Origin: a virus
Reading direction: 5' to 3' (one strand)
DNA length: 25,866 nucleotides
IMG/VR virus record: IMGVR_UViG_3300034200_000178
Location: 1 to 25,866 of that record
In this document: one piece after another, positions 2,660 through 14,786 of the stretch
How positions within the stretch are numbered: position 1 is the first letter of the stretch
Layout of the letters: the number at the start of each line of letters is the position of its first letter
Program-made: the position numbers and the translations under genes
The notes under the pieces: generated by a model
What the model saw: the letters and a program-made list of their open reading frames with translations, nothing else
Database searches by the model: none
Told to the model about the DNA's origin: nothing

Positions 2660-3004
2660 ATGGCCGGTACTCACGACATTGTTTGCGATCAAGGCGCGAC
2701 ATTTACGCGTATATTCACTTGGGAAGATTCCAGCGGCATTCCTATTGACTTAACTTTGTATACGGCGCGAATGCAAGTGCGGGCTACGATTGGCTCACTT
2801 TCCACCCTGCTGTCACTGACAACAGAAAACGGTGGTATATCACTGGGTGGCACAGCAGGAACTATTACCGTCACTGCAACGGCTATACAAACCGCAGCCG
2901 TCGCAGCCGGTTGTTATGTATACGACCTTGAAATGGTGACGGGTGCAGTTGTCACGCGTTTAGTGCAAGGATCATTCACAGTTGATGCCGAGGTGACGCG
3001 ATGA
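2660..3004 (+). CDS. Small Ig-like/BppU-N-like structural protein
   Basis: 114 residues, almost entirely predicted beta-strand: [20 protein letters not shown], then [13 protein letters not shown], and a closing ETTR-like edge ([11 protein letters not shown]). This pattern is widespread in small phage proteins encoded beside tail fibre genes and resembles the N-terminal beta-sandwich of BppU-type baseplate proteins. It starts one base after the portal stop, and its own stop overlaps the collagen fibre start (ATGA at 3001-3004). Coupled translation with the fibre suggests it is an adaptor or stoichiometric partner of the fibre. The assignment rests on pattern and context only. Confidence 0.72.
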
Positions 3005-5286
3005 GCGAAACCAAGTTGAATAACATTATTGTTTCCGAGACAACGCAAAACGTCATTGTGCGTGCGCCGGGTCCATCCGGTGCGGCTGGTCCTACTGGTC
3101 CAACCGGATCGACGGGCGCGACTGGTATAACGGGGCCAACCGGCGCGACCGGTGCATTTGGACCGACCGGACCGACCGGCGTGCAAGGCGCACAAGGCAT
3201 CGTTGGACCAACTGGCGCAACCGGCAACGTCGGGCCTACTGGTCCGACTGGCAGTCAAGGTATCCAAGGCGTCATTGGTCCGACAGGACCACAAGGCGTG
3301 CAAGGCATCCAAGGCGTGCAGGGTGTAGTTGGTCCGACTGGTCCACAGGGAATCCAAGGCGTGATTGGTCCGACCGGGCCAACTGGTAATACCGGCGCAA
3401 CTGGTCCACAAGGCCCAACAGGGCCAACCGGCGCACAAGGCGATGCGTCAACTGTGCCGGGGCCAACTGGTCCGCAAGGCATCCAAGGCGTGCAGGGCGA
3501 AACCGGAGCGCAGGGAATCGCGGGGCCAACTGGTCCGCAGGGCGCACAGGGTGATACCGGCCCTACGGGTCCGACTGGCGCAGCATCTAATGTTGCTGGT
3601 CCTACCGGACCTACCGGGGCGCAGGGCGTCCAAGGTGATATTGGACCGACCGGCCCGCAAGGGCCGCAGGGTATCCAAGGCGTACAAGGCAACGTTGGGC
3701 CTACTGGCGCAACTGGCGATATTGGCCCAACTGGTCCAACGGGTGCAGCGTCTAACGTAGCCGGTCCGACAGGCCCGACCGGTCCGCAAGGCGCAGACGG
3801 GCAATCGTCAAGTTTCTACGAATATCAAGCGGACACGAACGCGACAAGCGGCGTTCCTACTGCCGGTCATTTGTACTGGAACAATGCCACGCAGATTTCA
3901 GCGACCGCGATTGTTTTGAGCCATTTGGAACAAAACAATTTAGACATAGATATTTTCTTGGCGATTTTGAAGGATGGCGATGTTATCGTCCTCCAAGATC
4001 GTAATAATTCCGCGAACTTTCAAAAATGGGAAGTTAACGGAACGCCGACCGTCGTATCAAACAGTTATGTTTCGGTTCCCGTTACGCTAGTCACTTCAGG
4101 CGGCACAGGCACAACCAATTTTGCTAACAACCATCAACTGATTGTTGTTATTCAGTCTGTCGGTTTAGTCGGTCCGACCGGACCGCAAGGTGTAACGGGT
4201 CCAACTGGCCCGGTTTCTACCGTTCCCGGTCCGACTGGTCCAACCGGGCCGCAAGGTATCCAAGGTGACGTTGGCCCAACTGGACCGCAAGGATCGCAAG
4301 GTATCCAAGGCATACAAGGCGACGTTGGCCCGACTGGTCCGACAGGATCGCAAGGTATCCAAGGTGTGACCGGTCCGACTGGTCCACAGGGGATACAGGG
4401 TGTCGCTGGTCCAACAGGCCCGACAGGTATACAAGGTATACAGGGCGAAGTTGGACCGACAGGACCGCAGGGAATCCAAGGCGTCCAAGGTGTCCAAGGC
4501 GAAGTCGGCCCGACTGGTCCGACAGGTCCACAGGGTATACAGGGTGTCGCGGGGCCGACTGGACCGACTGGTAGCACTGGCGCAACTGGCGCTGTTGGAC
4601 CTACCGGACCAACTGGCGCGACAGGCGATACCGGACCAACTGGCCCGCAAGGTGTACAGGGTATACAGGGCGTGCAAGGTGCGACCGGTCCGACTGGCGC
4701 AACGCCGACAGTTGGCGGCAGCGATACACAAGTGCTGTTCAACGACGCTGGCGCTATCGGTGGCGATGCTGGTTTTACTTACAATAAAACCACGGACGCG
4801 GGAAGCATTGGCGCGTTAGCACTTTCGGCTGGCAATTTGTCGTTTACGACTACAGGCCAGCGCATCACGGGCGATTTCAGCAATGCGACGCCGGTTAACC
4901 GGCCAATGTTCCAAAGCAGTACGACAAACGGGTACACAGTTGTTCGTGCAATACCAAACGGAACCAGCCAATACGCTGAAATCGGGCTTGGTAATAACTC
5001 CGACGCGACTTCCGCTACTTCAACATTTTTTATGTCATTGAGCGCGACAGAGGCGCGAATTGCCTCTAGTCAAGCAAATACAGGGACATTGCTTCCGCTA
5101 ACTTTTCAAGTTGGAGGGAACGAAAGATTTCGTATTGACACATCAGGACAATTAGGCATCGGCGGCGCTAACTATGGTTCGTCCGGTCAAGTTTTGACTA
5201 GCAATGGCAGTGGTGCGGCCCCAAGTTGGCAGAGTGCCGGTGGCGGAGCGCCGGATTACATAACACAATCTTACGGTATCGTTTGA
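3001..5286 (+). CDS. Collagen-like fibre protein (Gly-Pro-Thr repeats)
   Basis: 761 residues. Residues about 1-20 form a short non-collagen N-terminus that probably attaches to the virion. Residues about 21-268 are Gly-X-Y repeats dominated by GPT, GPQ, GIQ and GVQ triplets with two AASNVA interruptions. Residues about 269-388 are a globular insert ([17 protein letters not shown] onward). Residues about 389-572 are a second collagen-like stretch. Residues about 573-761 are a C-terminal domain with fibre-like motifs ([11 protein letters not shown], then [16 protein letters not shown]). Phage collagen-like regions form trimeric triple helices without hydroxyproline, so this is probably a flexible homotrimeric fibre whose C-terminus binds a surface. 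It could be a side tail fibre or, given its place among head genes, a head fibre. GPT triplets are the O-glycosylated type in Bacillus BclA, and a glycosyltransferase gene lies downstream. Confidence 0.93.
3064..3804 (+). repeat. Tandem Gly-X-Y coding repeats, first collagen block
   Basis: Degenerate 9-base periodicity (GGN CCN ACN / GGN NNN CAA) encoding about 80 Gly-X-Y triplets. Glycine, proline and threonine codons vary freely at third positions. Two perfect 20-residue protein repeats centred on AASNVA (3559-3618 and 3724-3783) differ by synonymous changes in 14 of 20 codons. The repeat is therefore kept at protein level but not at DNA level. Confidence 0.9.
4165..4716 (+). repeat. Tandem Gly-X-Y coding repeats, second collagen block
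   Basis: About 60 further Gly-X-Y triplets, richer than the first block in GIQGVQG and GPTGPQG units, with the same 9-base periodicity and scattered third-position changes. The repeats give rise to several long but spurious ORFs on the opposite strand. Confidence 0.88.
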
Positions 5287-7201: not shown

Positions 7202-8266
7202 TTGAAAATTGCCGTTTACGCTATCAGCAAGAACGAAGCGCATTTTGTTAAGCGATTTTGCGAATCTGCAAAAGACGCCGATTTAATACTGATAGCCGAC
7301 ACTGGCAGTACGGACGATACCGCGATTGTTGCCGCCGAATGTGGCGCAGTTGTCCAAGATATTTGTATCACGCCATGGCGATTCGATACGGCGAGAAATG
7401 CGGCACTGGCACTATTGCCGCGTGACATAGACGTTTGCATTTCGCTCGACCTTGACGAAGTATTGGAACCGGGCTGGCGCGAGGAAATCGAACGCGTCTG
7501 GACGGAAGGCACAACCCGGTTGCGGTATTACTTCGATTGGGGTTGCGGGATTAAATTTCTGTACGAAAAAATCCACGCACGGCATGGTTACTTGTGGCAT
7601 CACCCATGTCACGAATACCCCGTGCCGGATGGCCGTATAACGGAAGTGTGGGCGCAGACTGACAAACTTTTGGTTAGCCATCATCCCGACCCGACGAAAA
7701 GTCGTGGACAGTATTTAGATTTGTTGGCGGTATCGGTAAAGGAAGACCCGCACTGTCCGCGCAATGCGTTTTATTACGCACGCGAACTGACCTTTTATCA
7801 GAAGTGGCACGAAGCAATAGCCGCTTTGAATAAGTATCTTGCCATGCCGCAAGCGACGTGGCCGAACGAACGCTGTTACGCGTACCGCTTACTTGGCAAG
7901 TCGCACGCCGAGTTAAACGATTACGCGCAAGCCGAAGGGTACTTATTAAAAGCGTGTTCGGAAGCACCGAATACCCGCGAACCGTGGTGCGAATTAGCAA
8001 TGCTGTATTACCGGCAAAACCGGTGGGCGGAGTGCTACGCGGCGTCGATGCGGGCGCTGTCGATTAAGGATCGTGCGCTGGTTTATACGTGCGACCCGGC
8101 GGTATGGGGCCACTGGCCGAACGACCTAGCCGCCGTGTCCGCGTGGCATTTAGGACTGCAAGCCGTAGCAGTCGAGCAAGGCAAACTAGCCGTAGAAGCG
8201 TCGCCAGATAACGCAAGACTGGCCGAAAATCTCAAATGGTATTTGGGAGAAAAACATGGCGATTGA
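7202..8266 (+). CDS. Family 2 glycosyltransferase with C-terminal TPR-like repeats
   Basis: 354 residues. The N-terminal GT-A domain begins MKIAVYAISKNEAHFVKRF and carries DTGSTD (residues 33-38, nucleotide-sugar binding) and DLDEVL (83-88, the metal-binding DxD). The C-terminal half (about 185-340) is helical with TPR-like repeats (EAIAALNKYL, then LGKSHAELNDYAQAEGYLLKAC, then LAMLYYRQNRWAECYAASMRAL). This GT2-TPR architecture is found in enzymes that glycosylate peptides or proteins. The start is TTG, with AGGTGA at 7193-7198. The end overlaps the capsid ORF by 11 bases. It directly follows the fibre genes and precedes the capsid gene, so plausible substrates are a fibre or the capsid; host surface sugar is an alternative. 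The acceptor cannot be read from sequence. Confidence 0.88.
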   Translation: MKIAVYAISKNEAHFVKRFCESAKDADLILIADTGSTDDTAIVAAECGAVVQDICITPWRFDTARNAALALLPRDIDVCISLDLDEVLEPGWREEIERVWTEGTTRLRYYFDWGCGIKFLYEKIHARHGYLWHHPCHEYPVPDGRITEVWAQTDKLLVSHHPDPTKSRGQYLDLLAVSVKEDPHCPRNAFYYARELTFYQKWHEAIAALNKYLAMPQATWPNERCYAYRLLGKSHAELNDYAQAEGYLLKACSEAPNTREPWCELAMLYYRQNRWAECYAASMRALSIKDRALVYTCDPAVWGHWPNDLAAVSAWHLGLQAVAVEQGKLAVEASPDNARLAENLKWYLGEKHGD

Positions 8267-10643
8267 CCTACAACCGACGGCAACGATGGCCGAGGAAGCC
8301 GAACGCGGGTTAGCGTGGCGCGAGGAATTCGGACGGGGCGGAACCGCCGTCGGCGTTGCTAGGGCGCGTGATATAAAAAACCGTGTTACATTATCACCGG
8401 AAACTGTCCGACGGATGGTTTCGTATTTTGCAAGACATGAAGTCGACAAGCAGGGCGCAGGGTGGTCGCCGGGGGAAGATGGCTACCCGTCCGCCGGACG
8501 GATTGCATGGGCGCTATGGGGCGGCGATCCGGGCCGCGCATGGGCGAATGAAAAAGACCGGCTATTAGATGCCGAAGAAAGCGAGGGTCGGAATATGGAC
8601 CAACAAAGACACATTGTCGCCGTCGTCGAGGACGAAGCGACCGTAACCATTACGTTCGAAAAATCCGTAATGGACATGGACGAATCCGAGGAAGCCGAAG
8701 CCGCAATCGAAGCGGTCGAGGAAGCCGCCGAGGATGAAGCCGAGTTAGTCGGCGAACGTCCGAAAGATATGTTCGGTAACGAGCCGTGGGAGGAAGATTA
8801 CGCAGGACCGGCCAAACGAAAAGGCCCGGAGAAACGCGTATTCCGCAGCGCGGTATTTGAACGCGAGTCGGTGCAGGACGCCGACCGCCGGGTGAGTTTA
8901 GCATTCTCCAGCGAAGCCGCAGTCGAGCGCGGTTGGGGTATGGAAGTGCTGGACCATTCGCCCGGTGCGATAGATTCATCGTTTATTGGTAGTGGCCGTG
9001 CGCCGCTACTGGTCGACCATGATCCCGCCGACCAAATCGGCGTGGTCGAAATGGTTTCCTTGGGTTCGGATCGTGTTGCACGCGCCGTCGTTCGCTTTGG
9101 GAAAAGCCAACGAGCCGAGGAAATTTGGCAAGACGTGAAAGACGGGATACGTGGGAACGTGTCTGTTGGATACGTCATTAACGAGATGGTTTCTGACGGG
9201 AAGCGTGATGGCCGGGAGGTTTACCGCGCAACCAGTTGGTCGCCACTCGAAATTAGTATCGTGTCCATTCCGGCAGATACTAGCGTCGGCGTAGGCCGAA
9301 GCATGGCGGAAACGCCGAAACCGGAAGTTATTTCACATTCACCGAAGGTACAAATTATGAGCGAAATTAACAGCGAAGCCGTCCGCGAAGACGGCATGAA
9401 GGCCGAGCGCAGCCGCGTTTCGGCGATTATGGACCTTGCTTCACGTCACAACCAGCGCGACCTTGGCGAGTCTGCCGTGCGCGAGGGTGCGACTATTGAG
9501 CAATTCCGTGGTGCGTTGCTCGACAAGGTGGCGTCCAAGCCGCTTAACGTCGACGTGGAAGTTGGCCTGTCGGACCGCGAGGCGCGTTCGTTCTCATTCG
9601 TGAAGGCCATTCGCGCCCTTTCGAACCCGCAGGATCGCCGCGCACAGGACGATGCCCGCTTCGAGTTTGAAGTCTCCGAAGCAGCCGCCAAGAAGGAAGG
9701 CCGAGACAGCCGTGGTATTACCGTTCCGGTGGACGTGCTGAAGCGTGACCTGACCACCTCGATTGCGTCCGGTACGTCGAAGGCTGGCAACCTTGTTGCC
9801 ACGGACCTTTTGGCCGGTTCGTTTATCGACGTGTTGCGTAACAAGATGGTCCTTAACACGTTGGGCGCGCAATTCCTGACGGGCTTGCAGGGCAACGTGG
9901 CGATCCCGCGTAAGACTGCCGGTGCGACTTCGTACTGGGTCGGTGAGAACAGCGCCCCGACCGAGGGCAACATGACCTTTGATCAGGTTACGTTGTCGCC
10001 GAAGACGCTTGCCGCGTATGTCGACTACAGCCGTCGCTTGATGTTGCAGTCGTCAATGGATGTCGAGACGATGGTGCGTAACGACCTTGCCGCGTCAATC
10101 GCCGTGGCTATGGACGCTGCTGCTATCTCCGGTTCGGGTTCTAACCGTCCGACCGGCATTCTCAACACGTCCGGCATTGGTTCGGTGACGCTTGGCACGA
10201 ACGGCGGCGCGCCGACTTGGGCCATGGTCACGGGCCTTGTTAAGGAAGTCGAAATCGACAACGCGTTGACGGGTGCGGCGGCGTTCCTGACCAACGGACA
10301 GGTTAAGGCGAAGTTGGCGTCGACTCCGAAGCAGACTTCGGGCGTCGAGGGTAACTTCCTGTTGGGACCGGACGTGAACAGCATCTACGGTTATCCGTTG
10401 GTGGTGTCGCAGCAGATTCCGGGCAACTTGTCGAAGGGTTCGGCGTCCGGCACGCTGTCTGCCATGATCTTCGGCGTGTGGAGCGACTTGCTGGTTGGTC
10501 AGTGGTCGGGCATCGACCTTATGGCCGACCCGTACACTGGCAGCAACGCCGGTACGGTCCGCATCGTGGCGTTCCACGACTGCGACTTCGCCGTGCGCCA
10601 TGTCGAGTCGTTCGCCGAGTGTAACGAGATTGTGACCGCCTAA
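8256..10643 (+). CDS. Fused prohead protease and HK97-type major capsid protein
   Basis: 795 residues in three parts. Residues 1-113 are an N-terminal module with the recognisable segment SPGEDGYPSAGRIAWALWGG, found in some phage head proteins. Residues about 195-350 are an HK97-type (S78) prohead protease: LLVDHDP holds the catalytic His (255), GNVSVGY the catalytic Ser (303), and WSPLEISIVSIPAD the conserved C-terminal strand. Residues 368-795 are an HK97-fold major capsid protein with an N-terminal helical delta/scaffold region (about 368-490), then VLRNKMVLNTLGA, SYWVGENSAPTEG and the closing HDCDFAVRHVESF. The protease would mature the capsid shell by removing the delta region. Start ATG with GGGAG at 8245-8249. 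Lys codons are 10 AAA/3 AAG before residue 368 and 16 AAG/0 AAA after it. Confidence 0.95.
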   Translation: MAIDLQPTATMAEEAERGLAWREEFGRGGTAVGVARARDIKNRVTLSPETVRRMVSYFARHEVDKQGAGWSPGEDGYPSAGRIAWALWGGDPGRAWANEKDRLLDAEESEGRNMDQQRHIVAVVEDEATVTITFEKSVMDMDESEEAEAAIEAVEEAAEDEAELVGERPKDMFGNEPWEEDYAGPAKRKGPEKRVFRSAVFERESVQDADRRVSLAFSSEAAVERGWGMEVLDHSPGAIDSSFIGSGRAPLLVDHDPADQIGVVEMVSLGSDRVARAVVRFGKSQRAEEIWQDVKDGIRGNVSVGYVINEMVSDGKRDGREVYRATSWSPLEISIVSIPADTSVGVGRSMAETPKPEVISHSPKVQIMSEINSEAVREDGMKAERSRVSAIMDLASRHNQRDLGESAVREGATIEQFRGALLDKVASKPLNVDVEVGLSDREARSFSFVKAIRALSNPQDRRAQDDARFEFEVSEAAAKKEGRDSRGITVPVDVLKRDLTTSIASGTSKAGNLVATDLLAGSFIDVLRNKMVLNTLGAQFLTGLQGNVAIPRKTAGATSYWVGENSAPTEGNMTFDQVTLSPKTLAAYVDYSRRLMLQSSMDVETMVRNDLAASIAVAMDAAAISGSGSNRPTGILNTSGIGSVTLGTNGGAPTWAMVTGLVKEVEIDNALTGAAAFLTNGQVKAKLASTPKQTSGVEGNFLLGPDVNSIYGYPLVVSQQIPGNLSKGSASGTLSAMIFGVWSDLLVGQWSGIDLMADPYTGSNAGTVRIVAFHDCDFAVRHVESFAECNEIVTA
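9344..9359 (+). promoter_or_regulatory. Candidate internal start for free major capsid protein
   Basis: GAAGGT at 9344-9349 lies 7 bases before an in-frame ATG at 9357 (residue 368, MSEINSEAVR). Initiation here would give a 428-residue capsid precursor without the protease, close to HK97 gp5 plus a scaffold region. The codon-usage change falls at the same point. The Shine-Dalgarno match is moderate, so this is a candidate rather than a certainty. Confidence 0.5.
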
Positions 10644-11184: not shown

Positions 11185-11401
11185 AATGCGACGGTCCCGT
11201 ATGTATATGGGCCGAACCTTGGAAGCCGGACGGGTTGTCGAAGTCGACGACAAATTTGGCTATTGGCTAACGTCAAAAGGAATGGCGGTCCCGTATCACG
11301 GCGCGGAACCAGTCGCGGAACCGTCGATGCTGGACACCGTTTCTAACTTGATCGAAACACAGGTTAAGAAACGTGGACGACCGGCAAAAGGAAATTCTTA
11401 A
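11174..11401 (+). CDS. Small head-region protein
   Basis: 75 residues. Pattern: a basic start, a small beta region with MGRTLEAGRVVEVDDKFGYWLTSKGMAVPY, then a charged linker and a basic tail (KKRGRPAKGNS). Short proteins with this GxVVEVDD...L...G.A pattern occur between capsid and connector genes in many phages and are usually left as hypothetical. It overlaps the preceding gene by 11 bases and the following methyltransferase by 29. The basic AT-hook-like tail (RGRPAK) could contact DNA; that is an inference. Confidence 0.72.
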   Translation: MKVEMRRSRMYMGRTLEAGRVVEVDDKFGYWLTSKGMAVPYHGAEPVAEPSMLDTVSNLIETQVKKRGRPAKGNS

Positions 11402-11918
11402 ATACCGACAGGTTTACGCGAAATATCCAGATTACCGGATGTTTCCCGACCGGCTACAGCCGGTTGTCGCCGCTTTAAAGGGCCAGTCGGGTTCATTTCT
11501 CGACGTGTCTTGTGGCCGTGGCGAGTTGCTGCAAGCAGCCGCCGACATGGGTTTTGCGCCAATCATGGGAACCGAAGCCGTACCGGAGTTGTGCGGCTAC
11601 GGGATAACCGAAGCGCAGATACACGCGTTACCGTTCGACGATAACGCATTCGATGTGGTTACGTGCATCGACGTAGTCGAACATTTGCTACCGCAAGACG
11701 TAATCCCGGCATTGCACGAACTACAACGCGTCACGCGTAAGTATCTATTGATTGCCGCAGCCGACTATCCGACCTATTGGGATGGCGAGAACTTGCATCC
11801 GTCCGCTCGACCGTATTCGGCATGGGATCAACTTTTTAGACAGGAATTAACCGGCACGGTTCACGAAATCGGGCCAACGTCTACGTCGGTTATGTGGGGT
11901 ATTACTTATGGCAGTTGA
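11373..11918 (+). CDS. Class I SAM-dependent methyltransferase
   Basis: 181 residues. SAM-binding motif I is SFLDVSCGRGELL (about 41-53), with an acidic residue after strand 2 (GTEAV, E68), followed by LPFDDNAFDVVTCIDVVEHL (87-105), the usual motif II region of small-molecule and sugar methyltransferases (Methyltransf_11-like). No DNA-methylase catalytic motif (DPPY, NPPY or PC) is seen, so DNA modification is unlikely. The start is GTG at 11373, inside the previous gene and with a weak ribosome site; an alternative is ATG at 11439 (residue 23), still upstream of motif I. The end overlaps the connector gene by 11 bases. The substrate is unknown. With a glycosyltransferase nearby, sugar O-methylation is one possibility. 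Confidence 0.83.
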   Translation: MDDRQKEILKYRQVYAKYPDYRMFPDRLQPVVAALKGQSGSFLDVSCGRGELLQAAADMGFAPIMGTEAVPELCGYGITEAQIHALPFDDNAFDVVTCIDVVEHLLPQDVIPALHELQRVTRKYLLIAAADYPTYWDGENLHPSARPYSAWDQLFRQELTGTVHEIGPTSTSVMWGITYGS

Positions 11919-12219
11919 AACCGCAGCGGATCGCGCATCCATGTGCGCCGCGTCCGATTGGGGCGTTGCCGCTATCTACAAAAGCGGCGGCAAGCGTTAC
12001 CCGGTGCAGGGCATTTTCGACCGTGAGTATATCGGCGTAAATGTGTCCGACGTAGAGTTTGCCAGCACGCTTCCAGCGTTCCATTTCCCGACCGCATCGT
12101 TACCGTGCCGTGCCTACGTGGGCGATACGCTTTATATCGACGACGACGTATACACGATTCGTAACATCGAAAACGATGGAACTGGCATCACTCGCTTGCG
12201 GCTGGAGGCGACCGAATAA
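11908..12219 (+). CDS. Head-tail attachment protein, gpFII-like
   Basis: 103 residues. The sequence KSGGKRYPVQGIFDREYIG, then AFHFPTASLPCRAYVGDTLYIDDDVYTIRNIENDGTGITRLRLE, follows the pattern of lambda gpFII-type connectors (a small beta-barrel joining the head connector to the tail terminator), including the closing D-G-T-G-x-T-R-L motif. It lies directly before the tail terminator candidate, as in lambda. It starts inside the methyltransferase gene (ATG 11908), and its stop overlaps the next start by one base (TAATG). Confidence 0.82.
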   Translation: MAVETAADRASMCAASDWGVAAIYKSGGKRYPVQGIFDREYIGVNVSDVEFASTLPAFHFPTASLPCRAYVGDTLYIDDDVYTIRNIENDGTGITRLRLEATE

Positions 12220-12659
12220 TGGCGCACGTAAGACAGCAAATCCGCGAAGCGTTTGCATCCGTCCTTACTACGGCAAACGTGGCATCGACGATTTCTTCGT
12301 CGCGTGTGTATCCGTTACCGGCAGACACGACGACAGCGGCGTTGATTTACACGAACGCCGATAGCGTTACTGACACGACATTGCACGCGCCGCGTAACCT
12401 AACACGCGAACTAATCATCGTGGTCGAGTGCGTTGCGCGAAAACTTGCAGATTTAGACGACCAGTTAGACACGCTTTGTAAAAACGTAGAAAACGCCGTT
12501 GGCGCTAACAACACGTTAAGCGGACTGGTTAAAGATTGCATCATGGCAGACACGACAATTACGCACGACTTCACAGGCGATGCGCCGATTGGGTCGGCTA
12601 GGATGCAATTTCGAGTTATGTATAGGACCGCAGAAAACAACGCGGAAATTTCAGTTTAG
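12219..12659 (+). CDS. Tail terminator/tail completion protein (gpU-like position)
   Basis: 146 residues, alpha/beta. N-terminal HVRQQIREAFASVLTT, central strand LTRELIIVVECVARKLADLDDQLDTLCKNVENAV, and a C-terminal strand pair DAPIGSARMQFRVMYRTAEN. This helix-strand layout and the central (I/V)E(C)-x-x-x-L-DD-LD pattern fit small tail terminators, which form a hexameric ring that stops tail tube growth and joins the head. It lies between the attachment protein and the tail tube, the canonical place. Identity is from pattern and gene order. Confidence 0.75.
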   Translation: MAHVRQQIREAFASVLTTANVASTISSSRVYPLPADTTTAALIYTNADSVTDTTLHAPRNLTRELIIVVECVARKLADLDDQLDTLCKNVENAVGANNTLSGLVKDCIMADTTITHDFTGDAPIGSARMQFRVMYRTAENNAEISV

Positions 12660-12675: not shown

Positions 12676-13071
12676 ATGGCAACACATCACGGATCGGAAG
12701 GATTGGTAAAGATTGGCGCAAACACGGTCGGCGAAGTCACCGGGTTTTCGTTCACGCTCACGGCAGAGTACGCCGAGGATACCACGCTGTCGGATACCGC
12801 GAAGACGTACAACGTCACCGCGATTACCGCGTGGAACGGTAGCGTTACCGCGTTTTGGGATGAAGGCGACACTAACGGCCAGTTGGCTTTTGTGACCGGC
12901 GCAAATGTGGCGTTGAAGTTGTACCCCGAAGGCGCGACGACTGGCGACACGTACTACTATGGCGATGCGTTGGTTACGGAAATTACCCGTAACGTGCAGC
13001 GCGGCGCGATCACCGAAATTTCGTTTAACTTCGTCGGTAACGGCGCGTTGACGACGGGTACAGCATCCTAA
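12676..13071 (+). CDS. Major tail tube protein
   Basis: 131 residues, mostly beta with few charges, and a conserved N-terminus of the phage tail tube type (HGSEGLVKIGANTVGEVTGFSFT). GAGAGG at 12662-12667 is a strong ribosome site 8 bases before the ATG, consistent with high expression. All three lysines are AAG, the same bias as in the capsid part of the fusion and unlike most neighbours. Next come the frameshifted chaperones and tape measure, as expected for a tube gene. Hexameric rings of this protein would stack to form the tail lumen. Confidence 0.87.
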   Translation: MATHHGSEGLVKIGANTVGEVTGFSFTLTAEYAEDTTLSDTAKTYNVTAITAWNGSVTAFWDEGDTNGQLAFVTGANVALKLYPEGATTGDTYYYGDALVTEITRNVQRGAITEISFNFVGNGALTTGTAS

Positions 13072-13084
13072 CAGTTGAGGGTTT

Positions 13085-13441
13085 ATGGATTGGAAAGATA
13101 AAGCCAAATCGCAATTCGCTGAACGGCGCAAGCCGGAAACGCTAGTTGCGATCCCGGTTCCCGAATGGGACACCACGGTTTATTACTGGCCGGATATGAC
13201 GCTGGCGGAAAGACGCGAAATCTTTTTGCTAGCGAAACAGGACGGCGATTCGACCGTGTTGGACCTAGAAGCAATGGCGGTAACGCTGTTGGTTCGGGCG
13301 CGGGATAAGAACGGCAAGCGAATTTTCGTCAATGCGGAACGGCGCGAGTTGCTCAACGAATACGACCCGGAAGTGATGGCTACGATTGTCGCAGCCATGA
13401 ACAACGGAACCGTATCGGTGGAGGACGCCGAAAAAAAATAA
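13085..13441 (+). CDS. Tail assembly chaperone, G-type (frame 0 product)
   Basis: 118 residues. Starts MDWKDKAKSQFAERRKPETLVAIPVPEWDTTVYYWPDMTLAERREIF and ends EDAEKK. Small chaperones of this kind bind the tape measure protein and are encoded between the tube and tape measure genes in long-tailed phages. The last codons GAA AAA AAA TAA form a slippery run, so a fraction of ribosomes should continue in the -1 frame to give the longer product (13085-13602). RBS TTGAGGG ends about 6 bases before the ATG. Confidence 0.85.
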   Translation: MDWKDKAKSQFAERRKPETLVAIPVPEWDTTVYYWPDMTLAERREIFLLAKQDGDSTVLDLEAMAVTLLVRARDKNGKRIFVNAERRELLNEYDPEVMATIVAAMNNGTVSVEDAEKK

Positions 13442-13602
13442 TTGAGGACGTGCAATTAAGGATGATTTACGCACTGGCGTTACGTCTGCACGTCCTACCG
13501 GAACATATTTTCGAAATGACGGAAACCGATTTTTCCTATCTGATCGCAACCTGTAAGTTAGAAGCACAAGAGCAGGAAGACAAATGGCGCAAGCACAAGT
13601 AA
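13085..13602 (+). CDS. Tail assembly chaperone, GT-type (-1 frameshift product)
   Basis: Join of 13085-13438 and 13438-13602 by a -1 shift on A_AAA_AAA (13432-13438). The shifted frame runs 54 codons from ATA at 13438 to TAA at 13600 (IIEDVQLRMIYALALRLHVL, ending KWRKHK), giving about 172 residues. The extension is helical and charged like the T domain of lambda gpGT, which bridges the tape measure and the tube subunits. It overlaps the tape measure start by 19 bases. An independent start for the extension is less likely: GTG 13450 and ATG 13462 lack a well-spaced ribosome site. Confidence 0.82.
13432..13496 (+). promoter_or_regulatory. Programmed -1 ribosomal frameshift signal
   Basis: Slippery heptamer A_AAA_AAA at 13432-13438 (the run is eight A, 13431-13438), followed by a 6-nt spacer containing the frame-0 stop TAA. 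Then AGGACGTGCA (13445-13454) pairs perfectly with TGCACGTCCT (13487-13496). The 32-nt loop holds a smaller nested hairpin, ACGC/GCGT (13469-13472 with 13477-13480). Spacer length and stem size match known bacterial -1 frameshift stimulators. Confidence 0.8.
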
Positions 13603-14786
13603 TCATTACCGCAGTCGATAGGACACAGGCGGCGCTAAAGTCGGTATCTAGCGGAATGAAAACGCTAGAAAAGACCGCGAAGGTTACTAGCAAGGCCATT
13701 AACCTTGCTTTTGGGTTGCTAACTGGCGCGGCATTGCTTGGAAGTTTTAACAAGATTGCCGAAGCCGCGAAGAAAACCGAGGAAGGCCGAAGGGCGCTGG
13801 ATAGGTTCAATACAGCATTAAAAGACCCGGCATTAGTACAAGCCGCTAACAGTTTTACGGCAGCACTTGTTACTGGATTTGCAAAGGTAGTGGAGTTTTC
13901 CGCAGAGGCGCTTAAAGGCGTTAAGGCTATCGGCCAAGAAATGGGCGTGCTTGGTCCAGACATTGACCGTTCACAGTTGACCGGAAACCGTGGCGGGTTT
14001 CGTGGGTTTGCGGCGCGTGGTCGTCGCAATTTCAACGAAACGACCGCGATGGAAAACGACTGGAAGTTTCGGCAAAAGGCGCTGGCAACTGAAAAGAAGT
14101 GGGCCGAAGCCGCAGCGGAAGCACGCGCCAAGGTAAACGAAGCCGACGCAGCGCGGGCGCGAGAAATGGCCGCGTTTAAAAAAGACTTGGAAGAAATACC
14201 CGAGTTATTTTCTACATCGTTTACCGCAGCCGACGTAACCATGGCATCCAGCGTTCAAAATATGCTGGAAGAAATGAACATGGCCGACGATATGATGCTG
14301 AACTTTGCCCAACAAGCAGCATCCAGCATACAAACCGCGTTTGCCGATTTCCTGTTTGATCCGTTCCAAAACGGCTTGCGCGGCATGGTTAAAGGATTTA
14401 TCGACGCGATCCGTCGCATGATTGCGGAACTAATGGCGTCGTATCTGTTGCGCCAATTCTTCCAGTATATGAGCGGCTTTGGCGGTATCGCCGGTAGCAT
14501 CGGGCAGTTTGCCGTTTCTACGCTGTCGGCGCGGGCCATGGGTGGTCCGGTCACTGGCAACACGCCGTACATGGTCGGCGAACGTGGGCCGGAATTGTTC
14601 GTACCGAATACATCTGGCAGCATTGTTCCCAATCACGCCATGGGTGGCGTAACCGTGTCGCCGGTTTACAACATCGACGCACGCGGGGCCACGGCAGATT
14701 TGCAAAAGGCATTGCCGGGAATCATGGCCGAAAACAATCGGCGCATATTCGATGAACTAGACCGACGTTATGGGATAGGGCGATGA
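13584..14786 (+). CDS. Tail tape measure protein (short)
   Basis: 400 residues, rich in helix. N-terminal segment VIITAVDRTQAALKSVSSGMKTLEK is typical of tape measures. A hydrophobic stretch lies near 40-55 and a charged coiled-coil region at about 160-205. The C-terminal part has AFADFLFDPFQNGLRGMVKGFIDAIRRMIAELMASYLLRQFF and the usual GERGPELFVPNTSGSIVPN segment of lambda-type tape measures. In this family tail length scales with tape length (about 0.15 nm per residue), so a tail near 60 nm is expected, shorter than lambda's. It starts at ATG 13584, overlapping the GT frame by 19 bases, and ends in an ATGA overlap with the next gene. Confidence 0.9.
   Translation: MAQAQVIITAVDRTQAALKSVSSGMKTLEKTAKVTSKAINLAFGLLTGAALLGSFNKIAEAAKKTEEGRRALDRFNTALKDPALVQAANSFTAALVTGFAKVVEFSAEALKGVKAIGQEMGVLGPDIDRSQLTGNRGGFRGFAARGRRNFNETTAMENDWKFRQKALATEKKWAEAAAEARAKVNEADAARAREMAAFKKDLEEIPELFSTSFTAADVTMASSVQNMLEEMNMADDMMLNFAQQAASSIQTAFADFLFDPFQNGLRGMVKGFIDAIRRMIAELMASYLLRQFFQYMSGFGGIAGSIGQFAVSTLSARAMGGPVTGNTPYMVGERGPELFVPNTSGSIVPNHAMGGVTVSPVYNIDARGATADLQKALPGIMAENNRRIFDELDRRYGIGR

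Follow-up and report, generated by a model that had tools for sequence, protein, structure and literature searches.

Most long-tailed dsDNA phages carry counterparts of the lambda G/GT system, in which a tail assembly chaperone gene lies between the tail tube and tape measure genes, a slippery heptamer stands at the chaperone 3′-end, and T is read in the -1 frame and overlaps or abuts the tape measure gene (PMC5009743). In lambda, where G and GT arise at ~30:1, the two products connect the tape measure protein with the tube protein (PMC5009743). According to PMC3091744, RNA structure downstream of phage sites is known only for rare cases, and not for P2, and conserved hairpins were reported in three of five phage clusters, only one of which was judged likely relevant (PMC4066793). 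In reporters, an A7 cassette gave 10% frameshifting, and cassettes of tail chaperones gave 6-7% (PMC3711429). Among described sites, those closest in motif to the locus studied here are gp18/gp19 of Burkholderia phage KL1, where GGGAAAC stands immediately before a TGA stop, and the haloarchaeal viruses HCTV-1, HCTV-2 and HCTV-5, with G_GGA_AAC and A_AAA_AAC for g-t in HCTV-1 and HCTV-2 (PMC3483164, PMC5009743). Outside tail genes, the cassettes of Escherichia coli dnaX and IS911 combine a Shine-Dalgarno (SD)-like element, a heptamer and a 3′ stem-loop (PMC3711429, PMC4066793, PMC5009743). We describe a tail chaperone locus in the window, that is, the whole 25.9-kb stretch of an uncultured-virus record that was analysed, which resembles lambda G/GT in gene order and heptamer position, and differs from lambda-type sites in having a stem that covaries and an SD-like element that is conserved.

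The gene neighbourhood at the locus follows the lambda-type G/GT order. A major tail (tube) protein gene (12676-13071, + strand, like G, the elements of the signal, T and the tape measure gene; phrog_1407, E 3.1e-12) is followed by gene G (13085-13441), which encodes 118 aa and ends in GAA AAA AAA TAA, and then by the tape measure gene (13584-14786), which matched phrog_1538 and other tape measure families. A tail terminator gene (12219-12659) lies among the genes around the site, and further products encoded nearby are a portal of the lambda type, a distal tail protein, a tail fibre resembling J and, sharing one frame, a prohead protease and capsid protein. The G protein matched phrog_344 (E 2.1e-8), and its structure was predicted with moderate confidence (mean pLDDT 75). 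Among PDB entries, 2OB9, the tail assembly chaperone of HK97, matched the predicted fold best (probability 1.00, TM 0.57, E 0.014), at 15% identity, and named tail assembly chaperones were also found among the viral-library matches (E up to 1e-3). Thus, judged by profile and predicted fold, G is a tail chaperone.

The initial annotation had described an eight-A run that ends G just before its stop codon, and this run was located to the base at 13431-13438; it is the only A or T run of at least 7 in the window. Its last seven bases form the heptamer A_AAA_AAA in the zero frame (13432-13438), which abuts the G stop codon TAA (13439-13441). Scanning viral contigs with G recovered ~100 contigs whose G proteins were 61-100% identical to that of the window, and these gave 42 distinct homologous sites. 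All 42 carry a canonical X_XXY_YYZ heptamer, in register and directly before the G stop, which is TAA or TGA in every case; the comparison of slip sites among related phages that had been proposed as a check on the slip reading thus came out in its favour. The heptamer is A_AAA_AAC at 21 sites, A_AAA_AAA at 12 and G_GGA_AAC at 9, so that A_AAA_AAC is the commonest form of the group and the poly-A form is that of the window's clade. By parsimony on the G tree, the heptamer type has switched about six times. The residues encoded by the heptamer vary (KK, KN or GN), and only slip-capable combinations were found. Because the encoded residues change while slip capability does not, coding constraint on G does not explain the conservation of the heptamer.

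Downstream of the heptamer, a 6-nt spacer, TAATTG (13439-13444), leads into a perfect 10-bp stem, as had been noted from the single sequence, and the spacing is constant in all aligned relatives. The 5′ arm AGGACGTGCA (13445-13454) pairs with the 3′ arm TGCACGTCCT (13487-13496) around a 32-nt loop (13455-13486), each boundary being reproduced to the base. This stem is one of only two perfect hairpins of at least 10 bp with a loop of up to 45 nt in the 25.9 kb, and the 62 nt that follow the heptamer (13439-13500) fold at -23.6 kcal/mol (z = -4.74), a value that none of 200 shuffles equalled. Among the relatives, 98.3% of stem cells are paired (23 distinct rows). Compensatory changes, for which the initial annotation had suggested looking in related phages, were found at 5 of the 10 pairs: the 23 rows hold 34 double-changed cells at these five positions vs. 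11.0 ± 2.9 after shuffling, and the covariation score was 0.438 vs. 0.174 for shuffled alignments and at most 0.112 when the 3′ arm was slid by 1-3 columns. By an approximate parsimony count, made on one tree with arbitrary tie-breaking, double stem substitutions fall on about ten branches. One subclade retains a G-A mismatch at the seventh pair. The RNAalifold consensus of the relatives consists of exactly the ten stem pairs and nothing else. A smaller hairpin nested in the loop had also been proposed; it is present in the minimum-energy fold of the window sequence, but absent from the consensus fold of the relatives. A search of Rfam returned nothing.

Since the two arms also encode T, synonymous recoding of T was used as the null for the stem. 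With the T protein of the window fixed, 4.5% of synonymous recodings of the window sequence paired at 10 of 10 positions, so that the proof of the stem rests on the family and not on a single sequence. The family mean was 9.62 of 10 pairs, vs. a maximum of 7.83 in 500 recodings using the codon usage of the window and of 8.33 in 300 recodings using that of the family. By this family-wide comparison, the stem is an RNA feature beyond coding constraint.

Upstream of the heptamer and within G lies an element absent from the initial annotation, a Shine-Dalgarno-like GGAGG (13420-13424), which 8 nt separate from the heptamer's second base. GAGG occurs at exactly this spacing in 37 of the 39 relatives with enough upstream sequence. 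When any SD-like motif of the kind used in PMC4066793, placed 5-17 nt from the second base of the heptamer, was counted, all 39 relatives carried one, vs. a mean of 25 and a maximum of 33 under the synonymous null, and other in-frame positions of G carry such a motif in 24% of cases. This conservation suggests that GGAGG is a probable 5′ stimulator of frameshifting. With this conserved SD-like element in addition to heptamer and stem, the window shows the same arrangement of three parts as the signals of dnaX and IS911 (PMC3711429, PMC4066793).

The T frame begins with ATA at 13438 and runs in -1 to a stop codon at 13600-13602, giving 54 sense codons after the slip and a predicted GT fusion of 172 aa. 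It overlaps the tape measure ATG at 13584 by 19 nt, in agreement with the open frame and overlap first noticed in the sequence. Every relative with sufficient sequence leaves only the T frame open, the two others being closed. The variability of T codon positions 1, 2 and 3 among the relatives is 0.25, 0.12 and 0.49, and the aligned T proteins share 19 invariant columns; by these measures the T frame is under protein-coding selection. Profile searches with T against Pfam and PHROGs gave no significant match for the window's family, and tblastn with T found nothing.

More diverged phages were reached through G and through the tail fibre. Phage DSL-LC06 has a G protein 33% identical to that of the window, and the Roseobacter phages CRP-406, CRP-811, CRP-821, CRP-823 and CRP-831, reached through the tail fibre, have the same gene order as the window; Pseudomonas phage Lebethron, reached in the same way, was set aside as different in layout. 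In DSL-LC06 and all five CRP phages, A_AAA_AAC abuts the G stop, a stem begins 4-7 nt downstream, and an unannotated -1 frame reaches the tape measure gene or nearly so. Scans with the G proteins of these two groups gave 44 and 34 distinct sites, and A_AAA_AAC was found in 44/44 and 34/34, at one of the 34 (L204) one codon before the stop. GAGG stands at the window's spacing in 43/44 and 23/34. The stems of these groups differ in sequence and loop length, being GCGAYCCATTCA/TGAATGGGTCGC with a 79-nt loop in CRP-823-like sites and of the AGGACACTGA/TCAGTGTCCT type with a loop of 56-66 nt in DSL-LC06-like sites. Their mean pairing exceeded the maximum of the synonymous null in each group (12.73 vs. 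11.93 of 14, and 11.70 vs. 10.18 of 13). Double changes in the stem can be seen clearly in the DSL-LC06 group; the CRP group shows few, and some of its members miss part of the stem. The T frames of these relatives align with the window-family T at shared positions across the three groups, and for the T proteins of CRP and Sinorhizobium phages there were matches to phrog_337 or phrog_16513, profiles of tail proteins or chaperones. A search of named phages at the DNA level with 12900-14000 found nothing, and a scan of genome contigs found no relative in cellular genomes. Pelagibacter phage HTVC202P (L113), a distant relative, carries A_AAA_AAC and a -1 T frame (1533-1709) that ends at the tape measure start, and no stem was found when one was looked for there. 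Because this phage has the heptamer without the stem, the stem is not universal and appears dispensable in some lineages.

We propose, at a probability of roughly 0.93, that the site is a lambda G/GT-type signal for programmed -1 ribosomal frameshifting; the initial annotation had read it in this way from the window sequence, and the comparisons of slip site, stem and T start among relatives all support that reading. Most ribosomes would translate G and stop at TAA (13439-13441), releasing the 118-aa tail assembly chaperone. A minority, with two tRNAs placed on A_AAA_AAA, would be held up there by the stem 6 nt downstream and probably also by 16S rRNA paired to the upstream GGAGG; both tRNAs would then re-pair one base back, and translation would continue through T to yield the 172-aa GT. 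By analogy with lambda, the tape measure protein would be covered by many copies of G and a few of GT, whose T part would recruit the tail tube protein. That slippage occurs is inferred, as are its rate and the roles of G and GT, which are carried over from lambda.

Two rivals concern the way in which T is produced. T might be a product of its own, started internally or by termination-reinitiation at the G stop, with GGAGG serving T as ribosome binding site. In keeping with such a route, GGAGG lies upstream, the window has an in-frame GTG (13450) and ATG (13462), and in one clade (L097-L110) TGATGG follows the heptamer, which places ATGATG across the G stop in the T frame, so that reinitiation could add free T in that clade. 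However, when relatives were inspected for a T kept under its own start, as the initial annotation had raised, no start codon was found to be conserved: ATG 13462 is confined to the window's clade, the codon over the G stop in the T frame is ATA, ATG, CTG or CTA depending on the clade, and 11 of the 42 distinct sites lack ATG, GTG and TTG in the first 27 T codons. Free initiation would moreover need no heptamer, yet the heptamer never fails in the 42, 44 and 34 sites, which makes separate production extremely unlikely. Alternatively, RNA polymerase could slip on the A8 run, which is near the length considered for such slippage (PMC3711429 cites n > 7), and GT would then arise by normal translation of mRNAs of altered length. 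Relatives carry A7 followed by C, or GGGAAAC with only three A, and this process would select the run rather than the X_XXY_YYZ pattern and would have no need of a stem at fixed spacing; its probability is close to negligible. Both a T start of its own and transcriptional slippage were rejected as mechanisms of the family.

Two further alternatives leave ribosomal frameshifting in place and concern its stimulator. The stem could be a by-product of T coding constraint, or a terminator, with the heptamer alone driving the frameshift. Its arms do code for conserved T residues, and ten pairs arise in 4.5% of recodings of the window with its amino acids fixed, but the family pairing lies above all 500 and all 300 synonymous recodings, compensatory double changes occur at 5 positions, two other groups carry stems of other sequence at the same distance, and neither a terminator nor a promoter was found at the site, so that we regard this explanation as very unlikely. 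A pseudoknot, in which loop bases pair downstream of the stem, had been suggested on account of the large loop, and a 32-nt loop could permit one. When all 5-bp helices over 165 nt were surveyed across the 42 sites, one loop-to-downstream candidate (alignment columns 33-37 with 74-78) was 89% paired, but it has a single double-change position and is not distinct from unrelated helices, and nothing else between loop and downstream sequence stood out. The consensus fold contains the ten-pair stem only, though RNAalifold cannot return pseudoknots, and a pseudoknot stimulator thus gains no comparative support and is unlikely. The same survey pointed to another candidate helix, this one within T (alignment columns 78-82 and 128-132, counted from the heptamer; ~13509-13563), 93% paired with double changes at two positions, which may be a coding chance.

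Taken as a -1 ribosomal frameshift signal, the locus would be an instance of a known mechanism, that of lambda G/GT, and the sequence comparisons make the window family an unusually complete and well-supported new example of it. A conserved SD-like motif 6-17 nt before the heptamer and a covarying stem-loop 4-10 nt after it, by which the dnaX and IS911 type is recognised, are both found here, and the stem and SD-like element may act as stimulators of that type; unlike this locus, dnaX and IS911 involve unrelated genes and purposes, dnaX has the strong heptamer A_AAA_AAG, and IS911 has a three-way junction. The KL1 structure is a single-sequence mfold prediction, unlike that of the window family, and the likeness drawn here is one of motif. 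The covarying large-loop stem together with GAGG at fixed spacing across three phage groups would be mildly new, and no priority is claimed for it. The odds appear about even that G/GT frameshifting in a wide range of tailed phages, uncultured and marine or freshwater, is driven by a complete dnaX-like cassette in which GAGG keeps a fixed spacing, a weak heptamer directly precedes the stop, and a stem of 9-14 bp closes a loop of 32-79 nt. If so, the dose obtained from a weak heptamer would be set by the stimulators on its two sides, whereas RNA structure is usually regarded as infrequent at the frameshift sites of phage tail genes. In this lineage every element of the -1 signal can be read from comparative data, including the compensatory stem changes and the SD-like element, and at tail chaperone genes selection on stimulators beyond the heptamer can therefore be seen.

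No T half is annotated in the records of CRP-406, CRP-811, CRP-821, CRP-823, CRP-831 and DSL-LC06, which therefore lack part of a tail-assembly protein that would be expected, and the layout described here would recover it. Heptamer, stem and open frame are present in all six: in the five CRP phages (L115-L119; ~140 nt after the chaperone gene) the stem has 12-14 bp, and in DSL-LC06 (L112), with the unannotated T at 3276-3467, it has 9-13 bp.

Several other genes of the window were also recorded. A prohead serine protease (Peptidase_S78, residues 235-354) and a major capsid protein (Phage_capsid, residues 511-787) share one open frame at 8256-10643 and are apparently fused. Between head genes, 3001-5286 encodes a 761-aa protein with many collagen-like Gly-X-Y repeats (Pfam Collagen, E 4e-57). 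Amid the head and tail genes, the product of 7202-8266 weakly matches glycosyltransferase-2 and TPR, and 11373-11918 encodes a SAM methyltransferase.
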